Origin: a virus
Length of the DNA stretch: 36,817 nt
Virus record (IMG/VR): IMGVR_UViG_3300032278_000044
Location: 1-36,817 of that record
Direction: 5' to 3' (one strand)
Shown here: positions 7,869 to 18,792 of the stretch, in pieces
Numbering within the stretch: the first letter of the stretch is position 1
Layout of the letters: every line of letters begins with the position of its first letter
Position numbers and translations under genes: made by a program
Notes under the pieces: model-generated
The model's database searches: none
What the model was told of the DNA's origin: nothing
What the model saw: the letters and a program-made list of their open reading frames with translations, nothing else

Positions 7869-9690
7869 ATATTTAGCTGGTAATAGGCAAACTGGATTAA
7901 ATAGTGATACTAAGGCTTCTTCTAATATAGTTTTAGGAACTACATTCCATGAAACTGATACCGATGATTTATATATCTGGGACGGGGATTCGTGGAACAT
8001 AGTTGCGGGAGACAGCATAGCCCAAACTCTGAGTAATAAAACTTTGGGTACGCAGTTACTTGTAACCGAGTTAGGGTCTAGTCCTGGCACACCTTCCTCT
8101 GGATTCGGAACCATATACGCTAGAGATAATAATAAGTTGTATTTCAAGGCTGATGATGGGACTGAATCCGATTTAACGGCTGGTGTAGGTTCTACGGGGT
8201 CAATTTCAGGAGCTTCAGATACAACGTTTACTTCTGTTAATGACGCAGCTTTAATCCTATATGATAGTAATACTGTTACGTGGCGTGATGCTGATATGTC
8301 TGGTATAGCCACTATAAATGACGTAGGGGTACTAACTGCACATAACAATATTATCACAAGTCAAACGGGTGAAGCCACTGTTAATAACAGTAATGATTTC
8401 GTATTAATTTATGATGGTTCTGCCGATGCGCTAAGAAAAATGTCTGTCTCTAACTTAGTTGCTGGTGGTGTTAGTGTAGATACTCTAGCACTTTTGAACG
8501 ATACTACTATAGCTAGTGTATCTTCTGCCCAAGTAATTATTTATGATGGAACAGATTCCTGGGATAATAAAACAGTTTCTGGCGATATAAGTATAAATAC
8601 TTCTGGTGTAACTGCCATAGGTAGTGGTGTTATAGTAAACGCAGATGTGAATGCTTCAGCAGCGATTGCAGTCTCTAAATTAGCTGCGAGTACAATTACC
8701 ATAGGTGGTACTTCCACTACTTTAGGTGGGACGATTACGGCCCTTACAGCTTTAACTGACCTTGACTTAACGGCTGGCAGTAAAACTATTTTTGATACAG
8801 TTGGGAATAATACTTTAACTATTGGAGCAAGTAATACAACTGTAAATATAGCTGGTGATTTAACCATAGCAGGCGATACAACCACTGTTAATACTGCAAC
8901 ATTAAGTGTTGAAGACCCGTTGATAATTTTAGCCAGTGGTAACAGTGCTGCTGATAGTGTAGACATAGGCATGTACGGTCTATACGATACATCTGGTTCT
9001 CAGGATTTGTACAGTGGTTTATTTAGGGATGCCAGTGATTCGGGGAAATGGAAATTATTTAAAGATTTGCAAGCAGCCCCAACAACTACTGTAAATACTA
9101 GCGGTACTGGATATGCTGCTGGTACATTAGTAGCTGCTCTAGAGGGTAATGCTACTACGGCAACTACTTTAGCAACAGCTAGAACTATTGGCGGTACATC
9201 TTTCGATGGTTCTGCTGCTATAGTTCCAGCTACCATTACGGTAGCTGATACTACAGATTCTACTGCTTTTGTAGGATTGTGGGAAAGTGCTACAGGAGAC
9301 TTGGCTCCTAAAACTGATGCAGGGCTTACATACAATGCTGGTACTGGTACGTTAACTGCTACTGCCTTTGTAGGGCCAATAACAGGTAACGTAACTGGTA
9401 ACGCTTCAGGAACAGCAGCGACAGTTACTGGCGGGACGCAAGCCTCAATTACGTCTGCTGCTAACTTAGCTACAGTAGGTACAATTGCTACAGGCGTGTG
9501 GAATGGTACAGCGATTGTCCAGGCATATATTGGTGCTGAAGCTATAAATGAAGCTAAAATGCAGATATCTAATGCTGGTAGTGATGGGCAATTTTTATCC
9601 AAACAATCTGGTAATACGGGTGGACTAACTTGGGCCACCCCCGATGCTGCTTCAGAATCCTTTGCCATTGCAATGGCAGTCGCATTATAA
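7858..9690 (+). CDS. Tail-fibre protein, paralogue of upstream fibre
   Basis: 610 residues, fibre-like composition. The N-terminal 64 residues ([29 protein letters not shown]) and a middle module near 280-330 ([18 protein letters not shown]) match the preceding fibre almost residue for residue, while the DNA differs at many third positions, so the duplication is old and under protein-level selection. Two phrases of the type [18 protein letters not shown] and [19 protein letters not shown] are repeats of a strand motif. The C-terminus differs from the neighbour: it lacks the Cys module and ends in a hydrophobic AIAMAVAL. It may be the shaft of a separate fibre or a heteromeric partner. Confidence 0.85.
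8695..8840 (+). repeat. Shared fibre mid-module, copy 2
   Basis: Encodes [20 protein letters not shown] and [19 protein letters not shown] in the second fibre, homologous to 6480-6620. Confidence 0.75.
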
Positions 9691-9699
9691 GGAGTAATA

Positions 9700-10071
9700 A
9701 TGGCTACAGAGTTTAAAAGAGCAACAATGGGAGATGTTCCTACTACCGCATTACCAAATACAAGTAATGCTAACAGTGATTTATATACAGTGCCTGCCAA
9801 CTGCGACACCGTTGTAATTGGGTTGTTGTTAACTAATATTTCCGCAGGGGCAATTGTAGTGGATGTCTTGATTGAAGGTCAAAGTGGTCAGGGTGACGAT
9901 GTTTACCTCGTTAAAAATGCGGATATCCCATTTGGCAGCGCATTGGAAGTTATATCAGGAAAAGTAGTTCTAGCCAATACAGGTTCTGGCACGGGGGATA
10001 CGCTCCAAGTTAGATGCCAGACTGGGGCCACACATTTAGACGCAGTTGTAAGCATATTAGAGAATACATAA
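9700..10071 (+). CDS. Small beta-sandwich virion protein
   Basis: 123 residues; AAGGAG ten bases upstream fixes the start. The sequence has the look of a small phage beta sandwich: LYTVPANCDTVVIGLLLTNI, then VDVLIEGQSG, DVYLVKNADIPFGSALEVIS and a final LDAVVSILE strand. Proteins of this kind in other tailed phages accompany fibres or decorate virions and often form trimers. No catalytic residues are evident. Its position between two large fibre genes suggests an adaptor or accessory fibre subunit. Family name not recognised with certainty. Confidence 0.75.
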   Translation: MATEFKRATMGDVPTTALPNTSNANSDLYTVPANCDTVVIGLLLTNISAGAIVVDVLIEGQSGQGDDVYLVKNADIPFGSALEVISGKVVLANTGSGTGDTLQVRCQTGATHLDAVVSILENT

Positions 10072-10328: not shown

Positions 10329-10643
10329 ATGGGGAAATTAAATCTAAGTCTTATAGCTACGATAGTTCCACTTATCATAGTGGGTATAGGGTTGATTGGG
10401 TGGGTACTCTCTTTAAGAAGTGATGTTACAACTACGGTTGGGCAATTAGAAGCTATACAGGAAGAGGCAGAAACTTTGCAAGAACGGATGAATGCATTAG
10501 AAAAGAGTATTGCAGTTGCAGATGACCAGATGAAGACCATCATGGGTGACCATATGGGATTCAATGATGTGTTACAAGAATTAGGAAAATCTGGACTTCT
10601 CCCTTCAGGAGAACGCAGAGCCTACGGGGGATATTCAAATTAA
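10329..10643 (+). CDS. Small membrane-anchored coiled-coil protein
   Basis: 104 residues. Residues about 6-28 (LSLIATIVPLIIVGIGLIGW) form one clear hydrophobic transmembrane segment, followed by a coiled coil at about 38-75 (QLEAIQEEAETLQERMNALE) and a short Gly/Tyr tail. With a short N-terminus before the membrane segment it resembles a single-pass type II or N-in protein. Small phage membrane proteins of this design include i-spanins and some holins, so a lysis role is possible, but the location inside the fibre cluster and absence of an endolysin nearby make this uncertain. A GGAG lies 11 bases before the ATG, somewhat far. Confidence 0.7.
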   Translation: MGKLNLSLIATIVPLIIVGIGLIGWVLSLRSDVTTTVGQLEAIQEEAETLQERMNALEKSIAVADDQMKTIMGDHMGFNDVLQELGKSGLLPSGERRAYGGYSN

Positions 10644-10657
10644 AGGGGTAATCTAAA

Positions 10658-13171
10658 ATGCCATATATAGCTAATCCGTTAGAAGGTCTACCAATACGGA
10701 GTTCTTTCATTCTAGACCAAAGTAGTCTAGGGGCTGCCCCTGCTACAGATGATACCCTCATTATCTATGACTTGTCGGGTACACAAGTAAAGCAGTTAAC
10801 TGTTGCAAATCTGTTCGCTGCTCCTGCTATTACAGGAAACGCTACCGCTGTAACACAATCTGCTAGTAATAACTCCACTAGAATCGCAACTACGGCCTAT
10901 GTAGATGCTGCTACAGGCGCATTAAATACTGTATCTGAAATGACAGATGTAACCATTACTTCAATTGCTTCTGGGGAAGTGTTGAAATGGAATGGCTCTG
11001 CTTGGATAAACCAGACGCTGGCAGAAGCGAATATTCTTCCTGTTGCTGGCCCCACCTTCACTGGTGTTCTTACGGTTGGAAGTGCTGTCCTTTCAGAAGC
11101 GGATTTAGAGCAGATAGATGATTTGACTGCTGGAACAGCGGTTGCTTCCAAAGCCCTGGTGGTGGATGGTAACAAAGATATAGGAACTCTTAGAAACCTG
11201 ACTATAGATGGCACATTCTCTGACGGTAACTATACCTTTGATACCAGCGGTAACGTATCTGGATTAGGTACAATTGGTTCTGGAGCAATTACGTCTTCTG
11301 GTGTTATAACTGGTTTAACTATAGAAGCAACTGGCGATACTGCTGCAAGTGATAATGCTGCAATAGGATATACAGCAGCAGAGGGATTAATTTTAACTGG
11401 TCAAGGTTCAACCAATGATATTACCATTAAAAATGATGCTGATGCCACTGTTATGTCCATTCCAACAGGCACTACAGGTGTAACTTTTGCAGGAACCGTA
11501 GGGTCTGGAGCAATCACATCTACTGGAGTTGTTACAGGAACAGGGTTTACGATTGGAAGCGCAGTAATTAACGAAGCTGATTTAGAGCGGATAGACGATT
11601 TAAGTGATGGTGTTGTCGTTGCTTCTAAAGTTGTTACGGTGTCTGCTGATAGACATATACAAACTATTGGAAACCTAACAATAGATGGCGTATTTACCGA
11701 TGGTAATTATACCTTTGATACAAGTGGAAACGTTACAGGATTAGGGACTATTACTGGTGGAGCCATCACTTCGTCAGGAATTATTAAGACTGATAGTACT
11801 ACTAATGCAACGTCAATTACGGATGGCTCCCTTCAGACAGATGGTGGACTAAGTGTGGCTTTAGATGTCATTATTGGTGATGACGTAACACTTATCTCCG
11901 ATGCTGCCATATTGAATTTTGGTGTAAACTCAGATGTAAATCTGACTCATGTACACGATACAGGATTATTGTTAAACAGTTCTCGTAAAATACAGTTTGG
12001 TGATGCTGGTACATTCATTCATCAATCGGCTGACGGTGTTCTCACCATAGAATCCGATACTACTGTAGACATTAATGGTGCTGTAGTCTTTGATGGAGCA
12101 TTATCTGGTATTACAACTCTTGGTGCGTCTGGGATTATAACGGCTGGTGGATTTACGATTGGCAGCGCAGCAATTGCTGAAGCTGAGCTAGAAATGTTGG
12201 ACGGTATTACCGCAGGAACTGCTGCTGCATCTAAGGCGGTTGTTCTGGATGCCAGTAAGAATATAGCAACCATCGGTACTATTAGTGCTGGTACTACTAC
12301 AATAGGGTCATTAGTAGTAGCTGCTGCAAGCATTACAGATACCTCAGGAGCTATAACATTTGGTAATGAAAACCTGTCTACTACAGGTACTCTAGCTGCT
12401 GGTACTACCACAATAGGAACACTTACCGTAGCTGCTGCTAGTATCACTGATAGTTCGGGAGCAATATCTTTCGGTGACGAAAACCTTACAACTTCAGGAA
12501 CTATTTCTGCGGGAAATCTAACTGTGACGGGTACTACTACAACAGTTAACTCTTCTGTTATGACAGTTGTAGACCCAATCATCCATTTACAGACTGCCTC
12601 TGGCGGTGGAAACCTATCATCTGATACGAATAAAGATGTAGGGTTGATGATGGAATATTATTCAGGGTCTGCTAAACAAGCATTTCTTGGATTTGATGAT
12701 TCTGCTGCTAAATTAACCTTTATTCCAGATGCTACCCTCAGTTCTGAAGTAGTTTCAGGGTCTGTGGGAACTATAGTAGCTAATTTAGAAGGTACTGTTA
12801 CAGCCAGCGGTACTATTAATATGAATACACAAGATATAGATAATATCAGGTCAGCTACATTTATAGCGGAAGTAGATAATGGTAACAGTAGTACATCAGA
12901 TACTGTAGATTGGGGTGCTGGACAAAAGCAAAAGTCTACTTTAACGGGTAACTGCACATATACATTTACGGCTCCTGATGGCCCTTGTAACCTTATGTTT
13001 AAGCTTATACAAGATGGCACAGGGAGTAGAACAGTTACTTGGCCTAATACGGTTAAATGGGCTGGTGGTGTGGCCCCCACGCTGACAACTACTGCTAGTG
13101 CTACAGATGTAGTAGCTTTTTATTTTGACGGGACAAATTACTATGGTTCTGCTCAATTAGCGTTTGCTTAA
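10658..13171 (+). CDS. Large tail-fibre protein with internal repeats
   Basis: 837 residues; AAAGGGG upstream supports the start. The N-terminal 60 residues (SSLGAAPATDDTLIIYDLSG) look like a fibre attachment end. About 80-residue repeats follow, each beginning GSAV..EADLE..DDL and passing through TIDG.F.DGNYTFDTSGNV; two full copies start near 11069 and 11549 and a diverged third near 12155. Next come TTTIGSLVVAAASITDTSGA-type repeats and the widespread fibre block NLTVTGTTTTVNSSVMTVVD. The last 115 residues (WGAGQKQKSTLTGNCTYTFT, TVTWPNTVKWAGG, FYFDGTNYYGSAQLAFA) are a common phage fibre C-terminal domain, probably the tip. Likely a homotrimeric receptor-binding or side fibre. Confidence 0.85.
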   Translation: MPYIANPLEGLPIRSSFILDQSSLGAAPATDDTLIIYDLSGTQVKQLTVANLFAAPAITGNATAVTQSASNNSTRIATTAYVDAATGALNTVSEMTDVTITSIASGEVLKWNGSAWINQTLAEANILPVAGPTFTGVLTVGSAVLSEADLEQIDDLTAGTAVASKALVVDGNKDIGTLRNLTIDGTFSDGNYTFDTSGNVSGLGTIGSGAITSSGVITGLTIEATGDTAASDNAAIGYTAAEGLILTGQGSTNDITIKNDADATVMSIPTGTTGVTFAGTVGSGAITSTGVVTGTGFTIGSAVINEADLERIDDLSDGVVVASKVVTVSADRHIQTIGNLTIDGVFTDGNYTFDTSGNVTGLGTITGGAITSSGIIKTDSTTNATSITDGSLQTDGGLSVALDVIIGDDVTLISDAAILNFGVNSDVNLTHVHDTGLLLNSSRKIQFGDAGTFIHQSADGVLTIESDTTVDINGAVVFDGALSGITTLGASGIITAGGFTIGSAAIAEAELEMLDGITAGTAAASKAVVLDASKNIATIGTISAGTTTIGSLVVAAASITDTSGAITFGNENLSTTGTLAAGTTTIGTLTVAAASITDSSGAISFGDENLTTSGTISAGNLTVTGTTTTVNSSVMTVVDPIIHLQTASGGGNLSSDTNKDVGLMMEYYSGSAKQAFLGFDDSAAKLTFIPDATLSSEVVSGSVGTIVANLEGTVTASGTINMNTQDIDNIRSATFIAEVDNGNSSTSDTVDWGAGQKQKSTLTGNCTYTFTAPDGPCNLMFKLIQDGTGSRTVTWPNTVKWAGGVAPTLTTTASATDVVAFYFDGTNYYGSAQLAFA

Positions 13172-13191
13172 ACTAAAGTAGAGGTAAAAAT

Positions 13192-14496
13192 ATGCCAGCA
13201 ATACCTGAAGGTGTAGGCGTTTGGTGGCCTGCATCACATGGCTCAATTCCATCTGGATGGACTCGTAACACGAACTTTGATACTAGATTTATTAAATCAC
13301 AGTCTGGTAGCACTGACCCAAATAGTAATGGTGGTTCAGGTACTCACAATCATAGTGCGGGTGGTAACCACACACATACCGTAGATGGGCATACACATAC
13401 TGGAAATACCAACGCTAACACCCAGACCTCTGGAATTGTTGGAGAGTGGACAACATATTTTTCTGCTGCATCACATACACATGCATTTACTCTGCCGAGC
13501 CAAACTGGTAACCTTGGTACTGGTACTGGTTCCTGGGCAACTGGAACCCATGAACCAGAATCTCATCTTGCCATATACATCGAGAGTGATGGTACTGGTG
13601 ATGGATTCCCCGCTGGCTGTGTAGTGTACTGGAATACTTCTTCTGCGCCTAGTGGATGGAGCCAACATTCTGGCACTACAGGTAGACTTATTAGAGGCGC
13701 AGCAGGAAGTAGCGGAAATGGTGGTGCTGATGGCCCTGGCTCAACAAACCATACACATACAGCTAACGCCCACAGTCATACACAAGCAACCCATGAACAT
13801 GGTACTGGTACTTCTGGCAACGCCAGTGCTACTTTTCATGGTGTTTCCCCTTATGGGTATGTACATTGCTCTCCCCCTTCAGGTCATACTTTTGACCCAC
13901 CTAATGCTATTACGGATAGTGGTGTACAGAGTGTTGCTGGAGGTGCTTCTGGAAATGCTAATAATACTGAGCCAGCTTGGTATAGACTTGGAAATATCAC
14001 TAACTCCTCTGCTGGTTGGCTTGAAAATGCTATTTGTATGTGGCGGGGAACACTAGGCAATATTCCCGATGATTGGGTTCATATGAATACAGCAAGTGGG
14101 TCAGGCGAAAGTGCAACCATTGACCTACGGGGTAAGTTCATTAAATCGGCTAATAGCAGTTTAGGTGGCATTGGGAATACTGGTGGGAGTGCAGGCCATT
14201 CTCATTCTGCCCCAGGTGGGCATGACCACGATTCTCCCCATGTACATGCTGGAGTAACTTTTGGGGCTGCGGGAGGACTTCAACACCCCCATAACTGGTA
14301 TGCTTATGCTGCTTCTTCGGGCCATACTCATCCTAACGCAGACTCAGACGCAGCTACTCCCAATTCTAGTAGCGTTGCAGAGCCAGCACCAGGTAATACG
14401 GCAGACACTGAGCCAGTGTTTAGAACAGTAGCTTTTATACGTTCACCTGAGGAGCCTGCTAGTGGTGGATGGGCGATGCTTGGAGCGAATTTTTAA
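13192..14496 (+). CDS. His-rich tail-collar/fibre-tip protein, three tandem collar-like domains
   Basis: 434 residues. Three units of about 145 residues follow each other. Each opens with a Trp-rich strand and a G..P.GW phrase (GVWWPASHGSIPSGW; GCVVYWNTSSAPSGW; AICMWRGTLGNIPDDW), passes through a G(R/K).(I)(K/R) phrase (TRFIKS, GRLIRG, GKFIKS), then a dense HxH block (HNHSAGGNHTHTVDGHTHTG; HTHTANAHSHTQATHEHG; HSHSAPGGHDHDSPHVHAG) and closes with EP......I (EPESHLAIYI, EPAWYRLGNI, EPVFRTVAFI). This is the phage tail-collar plan; in known trimeric fibre tips HxH motifs coordinate metal ions. The protein probably forms a receptor-binding tip or baseplate-proximal fibre. Having three copies in one chain is unusual. 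Confidence 0.8.
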   Translation: MPAIPEGVGVWWPASHGSIPSGWTRNTNFDTRFIKSQSGSTDPNSNGGSGTHNHSAGGNHTHTVDGHTHTGNTNANTQTSGIVGEWTTYFSAASHTHAFTLPSQTGNLGTGTGSWATGTHEPESHLAIYIESDGTGDGFPAGCVVYWNTSSAPSGWSQHSGTTGRLIRGAAGSSGNGGADGPGSTNHTHTANAHSHTQATHEHGTGTSGNASATFHGVSPYGYVHCSPPSGHTFDPPNAITDSGVQSVAGGASGNANNTEPAWYRLGNITNSSAGWLENAICMWRGTLGNIPDDWVHMNTASGSGESATIDLRGKFIKSANSSLGGIGNTGGSAGHSHSAPGGHDHDSPHVHAGVTFGAAGGLQHPHNWYAYAASSGHTHPNADSDAATPNSSSVAEPAPGNTADTEPVFRTVAFIRSPEEPASGGWAMLGANF

Positions 14497-14513
14497 TCTA
14501 GAGGAGAGTTTAG

Positions 14514-15260
14514 ATGGAGCCTGTTACCATTACATTTCAACGTGACCCTGTTTGGGAGTTTATAGAACCGATTGTTCCAGCTTATCAAGCAATGCCAAAT
14601 TGGTACAAGGATGCTAAAGCTGCTATCACAGAGTTGCCAGTGTACGATAGTTCAAGACTCACTTTTAAGGCTTGTCCAGCTATCATGGATGGTTTCTCCC
14701 AAGGGTACATACTCCCCCTTTGGGCAGATGTTTGGGTAGAACCAAAGGAAGGTAGTGATGACCCTTCCTTTTGGTGGGATAGACGTTTACAAGAGTCGGC
14801 AGAAGATAGAAAAGTTGTGACTCCCCATAATCCTTGGCAAACACAAGATTTGAAACCCTTTAAAGACATGTCCAGTTCATCCATAGCATGGAAACTGAAT
14901 TCTCCTTGGCTAGTTGAAACTCCCAAGGATTATTCAATGTTAATGATACCTCCTTTGAATAATAGGGATAGTAGATTTGAACCTGTAGCTGGTGTAATAT
15001 GTACAGATGACTTCACTACGTACATAAATGTCCCATTGATATGGAAAGCACCTCCAGGGTATTCAGGTTTAATCAAGAAAGGAACTCCGCTATTACAAAT
15101 GATTCCATTTAAGCGAGAAAACTTTCAGCACGAACTTGGATTAACATCGGATGATGGAAAAAGACTTCTTCAGAAGCACGATGCCTGTTTCCGTGGGATT
15201 GCCTCTCATTTTCAGAATGGGTACAAAAAGCTTTTTCATAAATCTTCGGCAAGTAAATGA
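14514..15260 (+). CDS. Conserved phage protein, DUF6065-like, copy 1
   Basis: 248 residues; GAGGAG before the ATG fixes the start. It shares its plan with the next gene: an aromatic P....MP.WY segment near residue 25, a Cys-Pro segment with GYILPLWADV near 62-72, NSPWLVETPKDYSMLMI..L.N near 128-150, GVICTDDFTTYINVP near 160, and KKGTPLLQMIPFKRENF near 188. This pattern resembles a conserved phage/bacterial family I know as DUF6065-like, whose function is unknown; the family name is given tentatively. Conserved Trp, Cys and Pro residues suggest a compact globular protein. It follows the collar-like tip gene, so it may be a virion component or fibre-assembly factor. Confidence 0.75.
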   Translation: MEPVTITFQRDPVWEFIEPIVPAYQAMPNWYKDAKAAITELPVYDSSRLTFKACPAIMDGFSQGYILPLWADVWVEPKEGSDDPSFWWDRRLQESAEDRKVVTPHNPWQTQDLKPFKDMSSSSIAWKLNSPWLVETPKDYSMLMIPPLNNRDSRFEPVAGVICTDDFTTYINVPLIWKAPPGYSGLIKKGTPLLQMIPFKRENFQHELGLTSDDGKRLLQKHDACFRGIASHFQNGYKKLFHKSSASK

Positions 15261-15290: not shown

Positions 15291-16097
15291 ATGGAACATG
15301 AACTGGAAGATATAAAAGGTACTGTAATTGAATTTTATACAGCAGAGACTCAAGTTGATGTTTTACCGCCTCCTGTACCCTCAGTTAAAATGATGCCAGC
15401 TTGGTGGTATAACGCAAGTAGACATGTAGGAAATGAGTGGGAGGAGGGCAGTCCTGCTCCATCCCCAACCACCTTTAAACAGTGTCAACCTTTTACGGAT
15501 GTATTACGCACAGGGTATATGATTCCTTTGTGGCAGGATTTTTCTTACGGAAACGTAAATCCAAACTCCGATATCCCTCAGATTGAAATTGATTGGGGGA
15601 AAGGCAGATATCCGTTTCCTGCTGATGCTGCTAGACACATGGAATTGGATAACCCAATAGCCCATAAAGATTGGGATAGTTGGGCAGAGATTGAGGGAGT
15701 AAAAGAGGGTATAATCCCCAACGCATCTTTTTCCTTTACAAATCCGTGGATTATTAGAACGCCCCCTGGTTACTCTTGTTTGTTTACGGCCCCCATTAAT
15801 GGAGAAGACCCTAGAATTAGATTGTTTTCGGGAATTGTTAACACAGATACATATTTTAATTCAGTGAATTTTTTCTTTGGGATGAGAAAAGAAGCACCCC
15901 CACACGGGATTCTTAAAAAAGGTATGCCTCTAGTCCAAGTTATTCCTTTCAAACGAGAAGAATGGACTTCTGTAGTGAAACCTATAAAACTAGGTAGTCC
16001 AGAATTTAATCATCGCATAAATGTTATAACAGAAATATCATCGGTTATAACTGGTGCTTATAAATCACAGCATGGGTGTCCCGTAGTCTTTAAATAA
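15291..16097 (+). CDS. Conserved phage protein, DUF6065-like, copy 2
   Basis: 268 residues. It is a paralogue of the preceding gene: MPAWWYNASRHVG, CQPFTDVLRTGYMIPLWQDF, NPWIIRTPPGYSCLFTAPIN, GIVNTDTYFNSVNFFFGM and KKGMPLVQVIPFKREEW line up in order with the copy-1 motifs. The copies have diverged widely apart from these segments. GGGAG a few bases upstream supports the ATG at 15291. The gene ends just before a strong promoter, so it closes the fibre-region transcription unit. No catalytic signature is seen. A cupin- or jelly-roll-like fold is conceivable from the strand pattern but is only a guess. Confidence 0.75.
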   Translation: MEHELEDIKGTVIEFYTAETQVDVLPPPVPSVKMMPAWWYNASRHVGNEWEEGSPAPSPTTFKQCQPFTDVLRTGYMIPLWQDFSYGNVNPNSDIPQIEIDWGKGRYPFPADAARHMELDNPIAHKDWDSWAEIEGVKEGIIPNASFSFTNPWIIRTPPGYSCLFTAPINGEDPRIRLFSGIVNTDTYFNSVNFFFGMRKEAPPHGILKKGMPLVQVIPFKREEWTSVVKPIKLGSPEFNHRINVITEISSVITGAYKSQHGCPVVFK

Positions 16098-16158: not shown

Positions 16159-16386
16159 ATGGCTGAGATAAATTTGGACGTAGATTTGACGCAAGTGAAC
16201 GCACAAATAGAAGATTTAGTTACACAGTTAAATAAATTGAACGCAGACCGAGAACAGCTAACTCAAAGTATACACAATCTAAATGGTATAGCTATGTATC
16301 TTAGAGGCAAGCAGCAGGAAGGCGGTGAACACGTAGATGAAATCGTAAACGAATATCCACCCGATGAAGTGGAAAAGGATGATTAA
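16159..16386 (+). CDS. Small coiled-coil protein, unknown function
   Basis: 75 residues, first gene behind the perfect promoter at 16102. Residues about 8-50 form a coiled coil (VNAQIEDLVTQLNKLNADRE), and the C-terminus is acidic (EYPPDEVEKDD). AGGAG six bases before the ATG gives strong initiation. The stop codon overlaps the next start (TAATG). Small coiled-coil proteins of this size appear in many phages without known role. Position before the connector gene hints at head-tail assembly, but it may simply be an accessory protein. Confidence 0.7.
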   Translation: MAEINLDVDLTQVNAQIEDLVTQLNKLNADREQLTQSIHNLNGIAMYLRGKQQEGGEHVDEIVNEYPPDEVEKDD

Positions 16387-17504
16387 TGGCTACTGCTGCT
16401 GGCGCAGAATTTACCAGTGTCTTTACGTATAATGGTAGTGCCTATACAGACGTATCTCTAGAAGCACAATCTCCAGCAGGAACGTCCTTTGCCATTTTAG
16501 GTGGGGCTTCCCATTACTTGTATTTAGGACATAATTACAAGTTTGATTTGGCTGTGTTTGATGTAGATACGGCTGGTAGTTTAGGTGCGTTAACATGGCA
16601 ATATACGAATGATAGTGGCGGTTGGACAACCTTCATCCCAGGTTCAGCTAGATATGAACTTGACCCTGATGATGAACAAGGAGTTCAGTTTGATTTTGGT
16701 GAGGATGGAGCCGAAACATTTCCACCAAACATATTAGCTGGTTGGTCAACATTAACCGTAAATAGTTCAAATGTATACTGGGTGAGAGTATCTACGGCTA
16801 GTTCACAAACTGCTCCCACCATTAAACGTATTCAAATGCGTCCTTATTCAGCGTATTGTACTCCTCAAGATGTGTTTAGAATGTTGCAGTTAGGCAATGT
16901 CACAGGCACAACTGATTTCACTACGAGTACAACACCTACTAAAGAAACTGTAGAACAATATATTATGGAAGCTCAATCGGTTGTAGATTTTACCACTAGA
17001 AAGAGTTGGCGACCAAATTACGTAGTTAATGAATACCAATCATTTAATTTGAATGGTTTTAAATTAGATAAACCAGACCCCTATAAAATACTCAAGTTAG
17101 AGATATGGAATGGGGCAGGCTGGGATAATAAAAGACAAGGAAGAACTAAAGATTACTTTCTAGTACCAGATACAGGCATGATTCAGTTCTCTCGTTATTT
17201 CCTGTTACCAGCGAGATTTACATCGTATAATGCTCCTGTATGGCGATGGGGTGGTGGTGAATTCACTATGCCCGTCAAGGTAACATATTTAGCTGGACGA
17301 GATATACAAACGGATATAAGGCAAGGTGGCATCGTTCAAGATTGCACTAAAAAATTAGCTGCCATTGATGTGATGCGTGATGCAGACTTCGGAAATCTAG
17401 TTGTAAGCGGTATGGATAGAATCCAAATGCAGCAGAGAGTAGATGGTTGGAGTCAGGAAGTCGAAGATAGATTAGATAGTTTAAGAGCATTTGAGGTGTT
17501 TTAA
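16386..17504 (+). CDS. Head-tail connector (adaptor) with extra N-terminal beta domain
   Basis: 372 residues. Residues about 157-372 look like a head-tail adaptor of the HK97 gp6 / SPP1 gp15 type: YCTPQDVFRMLQL, then TPTKETVEQYIMEAQSVVDF helices, a beta segment and a C-terminal helical bundle ending in VEDRLDSLRAFEVF. Such proteins form a 12- or 13-fold ring under the portal. Residues 1-155 are an added beta-rich domain (LTWQYTNDSGGWTTF, NVYWVRVSTASS) that is not part of a normal adaptor, usually 100-200 residues long. The TAATG junction couples it to the preceding gene. The connector assignment comes from motif style and gene order rather than a strong signature. Confidence 0.65.
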   Translation: MATAAGAEFTSVFTYNGSAYTDVSLEAQSPAGTSFAILGGASHYLYLGHNYKFDLAVFDVDTAGSLGALTWQYTNDSGGWTTFIPGSARYELDPDDEQGVQFDFGEDGAETFPPNILAGWSTLTVNSSNVYWVRVSTASSQTAPTIKRIQMRPYSAYCTPQDVFRMLQLGNVTGTTDFTTSTTPTKETVEQYIMEAQSVVDFTTRKSWRPNYVVNEYQSFNLNGFKLDKPDPYKILKLEIWNGAGWDNKRQGRTKDYFLVPDTGMIQFSRYFLLPARFTSYNAPVWRWGGGEFTMPVKVTYLAGRDIQTDIRQGGIVQDCTKKLAAIDVMRDADFGNLVVSGMDRIQMQQRVDGWSQEVEDRLDSLRAFEVF

Positions 17505-17505
17505 T

Positions 17506-18357
17506 ATGGAACGTAAAGATATACATGAAAAAATTCTATATCCTGTAACTAGAGTTAGGGCTTCCGATTCTGGTGGTAGTGGGGTATTGGTTTACAGTGA
17601 ACCTGACCCACAGAATCCAGACCAATACATAAATATAGCTTTAACTTGTCAGCATGTAGTTGATAAGAATATCATCGTGAAAGATGAGTGGGATGCTGTG
17701 TTGAAGCGTGATATTAAACGGGATATTATGCAAGAAGTTAACGTAGAAATATTTGATTATGATGGGAGTAAGATTGTTTCTGCAAACTCTACGTCTTCAG
17801 AAATTATTGCTTACGATAAAAACCATGATATAGCTGCGGTTAAGTTGAATAACACTAGAAAGATGAATTATGTATCGACTGTTATTCCTAGAACGGAAAT
17901 TGCAGATTTACATATTGCAGACCCTGTATGGGTTAGTGGTTGTTCATTGTTGCATGACCCTTTCCCAAATGCTGGTACATTGACCTCTTTGAGGGAAATG
18001 ATTGACCAGAAGGCTTACATAATGCAGAATGCTCCTAGCATTTTCGGTAACTCTGGTGGCGGGTTGTTCCACGGTGTTACTGGGCATTTATTGGGATTGA
18101 CCTCTCGTATTACTGTAACTCAGATGGGGTTTGGTATGGATGTTCAATCTTGGATGGGGTTCAGCACACATCCTGAAAGGTTGTATGAGTTCTTTGACCA
18201 TCAGGAATTACAGTTCCTGTATGACCCTAATGATAATTATTATGATGCGATTAAACGTAGGGATTCCCGTAGAAAGGAAGCTTTGCGCTCTGTATTGGTG
18301 GACGGAGAACTGGATAAACCCACTCCTCCTGCACCACCAGAAGACTTTGTGATATAA
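17506..18357 (+). CDS. Trypsin-like (chymotrypsin-fold) serine protease
   Basis: 283 residues from the ATG at 17506, chosen because GAGGTG lies seven bases upstream; a TTG at 17491 would place this site inside the gene. The catalytic triad is complete and ordered: H50 in LTCQHVVD, D108 in YDKNHDIAAVKL and S183 in IFGNSGGGLF. GGSGVLVYS near residues 23-31 is the first barrel strand seen in HtrA-type enzymes. There is no signal peptide, no transmembrane segment and no PDZ domain, so it acts in the cytoplasm or inside virions. The C-terminal 80 residues are charged and end in a Pro-rich tail. Neighbours are a connector and a tail-completion protein, so it may process a virion protein. Known phage prohead proteases are usually other folds. 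Confidence 0.85.
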   Translation: MERKDIHEKILYPVTRVRASDSGGSGVLVYSEPDPQNPDQYINIALTCQHVVDKNIIVKDEWDAVLKRDIKRDIMQEVNVEIFDYDGSKIVSANSTSSEIIAYDKNHDIAAVKLNNTRKMNYVSTVIPRTEIADLHIADPVWVSGCSLLHDPFPNAGTLTSLREMIDQKAYIMQNAPSIFGNSGGGLFHGVTGHLLGLTSRITVTQMGFGMDVQSWMGFSTHPERLYEFFDHQELQFLYDPNDNYYDAIKRRDSRRKEALRSVLVDGELDKPTPPAPPEDFVI

Positions 18358-18792
18358 ATGCCTGAACCGTTACCTGTAAATGTTGTTCTAGCTGATTTAG
18401 ATAGTCAGTGGAATGCGTCAAATGTAGTTGAACCTTTCTTTATCGAAGTTACAGGGAATAATGAACCTATTCGATTTGACTTGAATAGGGGTGACCATGT
18501 AATCGGTAGAGCGGGTTCTCCTGCATTTGATGAGGAACCTATCGGTAATTGGAAGTACGGTAATCGTACTTATGGTATCGAATTAGAGGTATATACAAGG
18601 TCTGGACGACAGAGATTATACGATTTAATGGCTGAAATACGCAGATTATGCCACTCCCGCATGCATTCCCTAACTAACTTTCAGCGACAGCAATTTATGG
18701 GATTTGAAGAAGAGACTCAAGAACATGCTAATGTATGGATGGGTACTATAGAGATTGAATTAGTGAATAATGCGGTACTGTTAGAAACTTAG
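18358..18792 (+). CDS. Tail-completion / tail-terminator-like protein
   Basis: 144 residues starting immediately after the protease stop codon. An alpha/beta sequence with RSGRQRLYDLMAEIRRLCHS as a long central helix and WMGTIEIELVNNAVLLE as a final strand. This arrangement, together with its place just before the tail tube gene, fits neck or tail-terminator proteins (lambda gpU / HK97 gp10-like), which form a ring on the end of the tube. No sharp motif defines that family, so the call rests mainly on gene order and secondary-structure pattern. Initiation probably depends on coupling since no clear ribosome binding site is present. Confidence 0.55.
   Translation: MPEPLPVNVVLADLDSQWNASNVVEPFFIEVTGNNEPIRFDLNRGDHVIGRAGSPAFDEEPIGNWKYGNRTYGIELEVYTRSGRQRLYDLMAEIRRLCHSRMHSLTNFQRQQFMGFEEETQEHANVWMGTIEIELVNNAVLLET

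Follow-up and report, generated by a model that had tools for sequence, protein, structure and literature searches.

Proteases of the HtrA/Deg group (MEROPS S1C: DegP, DegQ, DegS and HhoA) are the nearest relatives of solved structure of the serine protease described here, which is encoded on a 36,817-nucleotide stretch of viral DNA (IMG/VR record IMGVR_UViG_3300032278_000044; hereafter the window). The window protease shares with them the fold of the protease domain, the catalytic triad and the motif GNSGG followed by an LGFxxxV segment, along with a weak match to the NCBIfam model degP_htrA_DO that lies far below the cut-off. Unlike these proteins, to which it is 15-19% identical, it possesses neither a PDZ domain nor a signal peptide, with a helix (residues 245-268) and an unordered tail occupying the place of the PDZ domain. 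Its protease domain is of the HtrA type, but because PDZ and export features are absent it is not classed among the HtrA/Deg proteins. Staphylococcal proteases of the V8/exfoliative-toxin type (S1B) show weak profile similarity around the Asp and Ser motifs (E 0.016-0.94), but this match is weaker than that to HtrA, and as S1B enzymes are secreted and have different specificity pockets, the likeness is one of analogy only.

Proteins of many phages and giant viruses already bear the annotation 'trypsin-like peptidase' (PHROG 9683; BFVD entries including A0A8S5MFA3, A0A7G7WW26, A0A1S5Y2X3 and A0A6J5RC96), these names being annotation only. They share the Trypsin_2 domain and the predicted fold with the window protease, but identity to the listed phage and archaeal-virus entries is 16-20%, and the window family has conserved stretches of its own (LHEKILYP, GCSLLHDP and HPxRLYEFF). 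Prohead proteases of families S78 (HK97-type) and S77 (T4 gp21) are also phage-encoded serine proteases found in the same or related genomes; however, they have a different fold and show no sequence match, and the relatives of the window phage have S78 in addition. A literature search with limited coverage of subscription journals yielded no study of this protease family and none of a phage trypsin-like protease containing an intein.

Fold, catalytic site and conservation of the protease

The ORF at 17506..18357 (plus strand) encodes a protein of 283 aa ending in a stop codon, which was identified as a stand-alone, HtrA-like S1-type serine protease on the basis of its translation, domain matches, predicted structure and relatives. 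It matched Pfam PF13365 Trypsin_2 (E=2.6e-9) with 38.4 bits against a curated cut-off of 27.6, Pfam PF00089 Trypsin just above the cut-off of that family, and PHROG 9683 'protease' (E=8e-7). The prohead protease families S78 and S77 were absent among its Pfam matches up to E=1, no Pfam match to a PDZ domain was obtained, and none of the PADLOC defence-protein models was matched (0 families). The N-terminus (MERKDIHEKILYPVTRV), judged by eye, contains no hydrophobic segment that could serve as a signal peptide.

The putative catalytic residues are H50 in LTCQHVVD (codon 17653..17655, LTCQHV), D108 in YDKNHDIAAVKL (codon 17827..17829, DKNHDIA) and the nucleophile S183 in GNSGGGLF (codon 18052..18054, GNSGGG), all on the plus strand. 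A structural model obtained by running AlphaFold2 on the family alignment (pLDDT 85.8, pTM 0.83) was compared to solved structures using Foldseek, with DegQ, DegP, Deg8 and DegS identified as the top PDB matches (probability 1.00) and a TM score of 0.76 by target length against a protease-only DegS structure. Model and matches agree on a double beta-barrel, followed in the model by the C-terminal helix and unordered tail described above. While a single-sequence search with the window protein matched no solved structure, a profile built from 35 family members matched HtrA/Deg proteases (best E=1.2e-5) in an alignment spanning the Asp and Ser motifs, in which D108 aligns with the triad Asp of HtrA; the His motif aligned weakly and as a separate stretch. 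From fold and alignment, H50, D108 and S183 are predicted to come together, and the protein is a genuine member of the S1 fold (PA clan, Trypsin_2) that presumably has proteolytic activity.

Scans of viral contigs yielded 23, then 69 and then 14 protease loci in overlapping sets, giving approximately 75 viral relatives that are roughly 36-73% identical and possess the triad wherever the region is covered. Among 58 distinct sequences (window included), the H, D and S motifs were matched in all 51 for which the three regions are uninterrupted. The remaining seven comprise six contig-end fragments and one relative interrupted by an intein (L023); no triad residue is lost in the covered part of any of these, with L023 retaining all three. 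Residues corresponding to H50 and D108 were found in every relative covering those sites. The triad is also present in four more divergent relatives (L161, L162, L163 and L166), in one of which GSSGG replaces GNSGG. Ratios of dN/dS were 0.04-0.11 in 11 close pairs of protease genes. Since the triad is invariant and these ratios are low, the protease is maintained by purifying selection, presumably as an active enzyme.

No relatives were identified in cultured phages beyond one 23%-identical match, itself in a 595-kb uncultured phage. One pattern-based scan of genome contigs for cellular homologues gave a single match (L089, NZCQ01000013.1), on a contig of a Pacearchaeota MAG. This contig was found to have the gene order of a T4-like group of phages, with a GH108-cluster lysozyme, flagellin and the protease, and was rejected as a cellular homologue on these grounds; the contig is probably from a phage and was assigned to the wrong genome in binning.

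A reading made from the sequence only had proposed a complete trypsin-type triad at H50, D108 and S183 in an enzyme lacking a signal peptide and a PDZ domain, distinct from the usual prohead protease folds and little described. The three residues are at these positions and in these motifs in the translation, no homologue was found to miss one of them in a covered region, and the model is of the chymotrypsin/HtrA type. The proposed lack of a signal peptide agrees with the sequence and that of a PDZ domain with the Pfam scan, while the searches of folds, Pfam and literature bear out that the protein is stand-alone, little described and different from prohead proteases. The term 'trypsin-type' describes the fold and the triad correctly but not the specificity, as the nearest solved relatives are HtrA/Deg proteases and the residue six positions before the catalytic Ser is Pro or Ser, where trypsin has Asp. 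An invariant residue, Arg201, adjoins the position of chymotrypsin Ser214, from which an unusual substrate preference is predicted.

Insertion between the connector and tail-completion genes

Upstream of the protease gene lies the gene of a connector-like protein of 372 aa (16386..17504, plus strand) and downstream that of a putative tail-completion/terminator protein of 144 aa (18358..18792, plus strand), these forming the left and right edges of an insertion. A scan with the connector retrieved 53 relatives of the same phage lineage that are 60-75% identical. In all 53, the connector gene is followed by the tail-completion gene at a coordinate distance of 3-14 nt with no protease between, and the tube, chaperone, tape-measure and other genes occur in the same downstream order. 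Only in the window was the protease found between the two genes. The junction of the siblings reads TTTTAATGCCTGAACC and that of the window TTTTAAT-(protease)-ATGCCTGAACC. In longer context, the siblings have ...TTTGAGGTGTTTTAATGCCTGAACC..., where the connector stop overlaps the next start, and the window has ...TTTGAGGTGTTTTAAT-ATGGAACG...(protease)...GATATAA-ATGCCTGAACC.... The insert is a clean insertion of one gene with no spacer (TTTTAAT-ATG...TAA-ATG), a single gene present or absent between contiguous conserved genes in the manner of a mobile accessory element.

A putative ribosome-binding site, GAGGTG (17493..17498, plus strand), lies within the 3' end of the connector gene, and the same motif precedes the tail-completion gene in protease-free siblings. 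The junction, being without a spacer, has no room for a promoter and terminator of the protease gene's own, so that the gene should be co-transcribed with the virion genes in the window phage. As it would depend on transcription of the operon, the term 'moron' in its strict sense would not apply here. The GC content (0.399) and GC3 (0.345) of the gene are inside the range of the adjacent genes and give no compositional sign of a recent foreign origin.

Records of the connector lineage, which are fragments, were found to carry the protease in only two of 24 cases (G002 and G008), both times away from the connector; in G008, the protease and S78 genes are on different strands. A profile of the S78 head-maturation protease of the lineage (A4) was searched against 23 connector records and matched 13 of these, namely G002, G008 and 11 in which the protease was not found. 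These 11 include contigs of 81.6, 85.1 and 81.3 kb, although some absences of the protease may reflect missed sequence, the records being fragments. Retention throughout the lineage alongside portal and capsid genes, as for a head-maturation protease, was thus not observed for the trypsin-like gene, and head maturation in this lineage is clearly independent of it. The window phage presumably also has an S78 protease, as its relatives do, its head genes lying outside the window.

The sequence-only reading had tied the protease to a connector operon and had named the nearby tube, connector and acidic proteins as possible substrates. With all 53 connector relatives lacking the protease at this junction and the window copy being an insertion of one gene, the link to the operon falls, and the structural neighbourhood of the protease is, as judged from these junctions, accidental. 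The proteins named make poor substrate candidates, because the insertion is accidental, S78 or S77 proteases are present and the neighbours of the gene differ elsewhere.

Two other features of the window were observed. Tandem paralogues of PHROG 7084, of unknown function, are encoded at 14514-15260 and 15291-16097 (E=2e-44 and 5e-36), the second also weakly matching DUF6065. A match to an Rz-like spanin (PHROG 739, E=1.6e-5) was found at 10329-10643 between fibre genes, which suggests a Gram-negative host.

Occurrence in unrelated phages and inteins

At approximately 40 protease loci, almost none of the other genes of the window were found alongside the protease, and clustering of all neighbours revealed a dozen or so different contexts. 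These include phages with an SU10/HVTV-1-type capsid and an S78 protease, T4-like phages with gp32, gp59, a GH108 lysozyme and a flagellin gene, a phage with a strong match to the S77 gp21-like prohead protease (G006, E=3e-38), and loci at which terminase genes lie directly downstream of the protease. At about 15 SU10-type loci, no more than a few kb separate the protease from the capsid and S78 genes, and the GH108 lysozyme gene is adjacent or one gene away in about nine T4-like loci. Clustering of neighbours within 6 kb at about 55 loci revealed no obligatory partner gene, none being common beyond one or a few phage groups. Protease identity across phage groups is 60-70%, with the other genes mostly unrelated. 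On the gene tree, SU10-type copies were found in three places, with one (L005) grouping with T4-like copies at a support of 94/90, just below the starred threshold. Transfer between phage groups is the simplest account of this distribution.

A flagellin gene of bacterial type, with a product of about 282 aa that has Flagellin_N and Flagellin_C but lacks the central domain, was identified within about 2 kb of the protease at ten T4-like loci (L043, L044, L045, L047, L048, L053, L064, L065, L066 and L089; e.g. L045:12429-13277), with hardly any match in cultured phages. At two of these loci, a phage-encoded permuted tmRNA (Rfam RF04321) lies a short distance upstream of the protease (L044:2772-3080, 84 bits, and L045:9375-9683, 81 bits), which may point to a host group with a two-piece tmRNA. 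The major capsid protein of the protease-carrying SU10-type relatives (L012:453-1829) has as its nearest cultured viruses the haloarchaeal tailed viruses HVTV-1 and HCTV-5, at about 30% identity over 36% of its length.

On a contig of 96.9 kb (L023, IMGVR_UViG_3300005613_000020), the trypsin-like protease (8001-9962) was found to be interrupted by an intein of the 360-aa class with a LAGLIDADG endonuclease. This intein lies between GN and the catalytic Ser, directly before the residue corresponding to S183 (IFGN/CLPGES...VHN/SGGS; Pfam Intein_splicing E=1.2e-20). The S78 head protease of this phage, encoded some 0.9 kb further downstream (10874-14605), contains an intein of its own, which differs from the first and has an HNH endonuclease; the frame, of 1243 aa, also contains a methyltransferase domain. 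This second intein directly follows a conserved His (VMH/CLAPET...FHN/SDAQVGW, with intein-free relatives reading VLH/SDVQVGW), which from its position is presumably the catalytic His of S78. Both proteases of this phage would thus need splicing to become active. As inteins have a preference for conserved active sites, the double occurrence may reflect nothing beyond this. Inteins have been described in other phage genes, such as those for UvrD helicase, terminase and ribonucleotide reductase (PMC3868849, PMC3322345).

Possible role of the protease

The reading preferred here, to which a probability of roughly 0.6 is given, is that of a functional stand-alone HtrA-type protease encoded by a single accessory gene that is exchanged as a cassette among unrelated tailed phages, the target most likely being a protein of the host or of a defence system. 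In the window, this 'moron-like' cassette has inserted precisely at the junction of the connector and tail-completion genes, where translation from the ribosome-binding site inside the connector gene would cause the protease to be made late, with the virion proteins. Lacking both an export signal and a PDZ domain, the protease should work in the cytoplasm on specific substrates. It would not mature virion parts but would cleave a single host protein or a small number of them, the target being a defence, stress or housekeeping factor that the hosts of the carriers have in common. For a gene that assembly can do without and that passes between unrelated phages, yet is under strong purifying selection, the best explanation is a target shared by those phages, i.e. 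in the host, a shared host being assumed here. Against this reading stand the SU10-type loci with the gene near capsid and S78 genes, where a structural role is possible.

An overlapping explanation is that the protease is packaged in the virion, ejected with the DNA and cleaves a host defence or regulatory protein early in the next infection. The late-operon position in the window and closeness to capsid genes in SU10-type phages fit late expression and packaging, as does the lack of an export signal; yet neither a packaging signal nor a fusion with a virion protein was observed, and T4-like loci place the gene near the gp32/gp59 replication genes and not among structural ones, making this explanation unlikely. 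A role in assembly, with connector, tube, tape-measure or capsid proteins being trimmed by the protease, is quite unlikely. The late structural operon would provide the right timing in the window, and the gene is near capsid and S78 genes in many SU10-type loci, but the protease is missing between and beside the connector and tube genes of relatives in which these two proteins are 55-75% identical, S78 or S77 head proteases are present anyway and the gene moves independently of the structural genes. Of the two roles that the sequence-only reading had offered, host attack therefore survives, while virion maturation is made improbable by the accidental locus, the differing neighbours and the head proteases, with S78 present in the connector lineage with or without the trypsin-like gene and S77 in T4-like carriers. 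Clean-up of misfolded phage proteins in the manner of DegP, or help in lysis, is very unlikely, as although the closest folds (DegP, DegQ and DegS) are those of general quality-control proteases and a GH108 endolysin gene is a neighbour at some T4-like loci, the protein has neither the part with which Deg proteases sense substrates nor their periplasmic location, and no lysis neighbour was found in the other groups.

A narrower form of the host-target reading can be offered tentatively, at somewhat less than even odds: that of a phage-exchanged family of cytoplasmic proteases which disable one conserved host or defence protein across the hosts of several unrelated groups of phages, with the activity of one member depending on splicing of the intein before its catalytic Ser.

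Many phages have genes annotated as trypsin-like proteases whose role is not known. A position among structural genes is easily taken as a clue to function, but fails as one here. Movement between phages under strong selection points to a target in the host, making this family candidate anti-host or counter-defence proteases.
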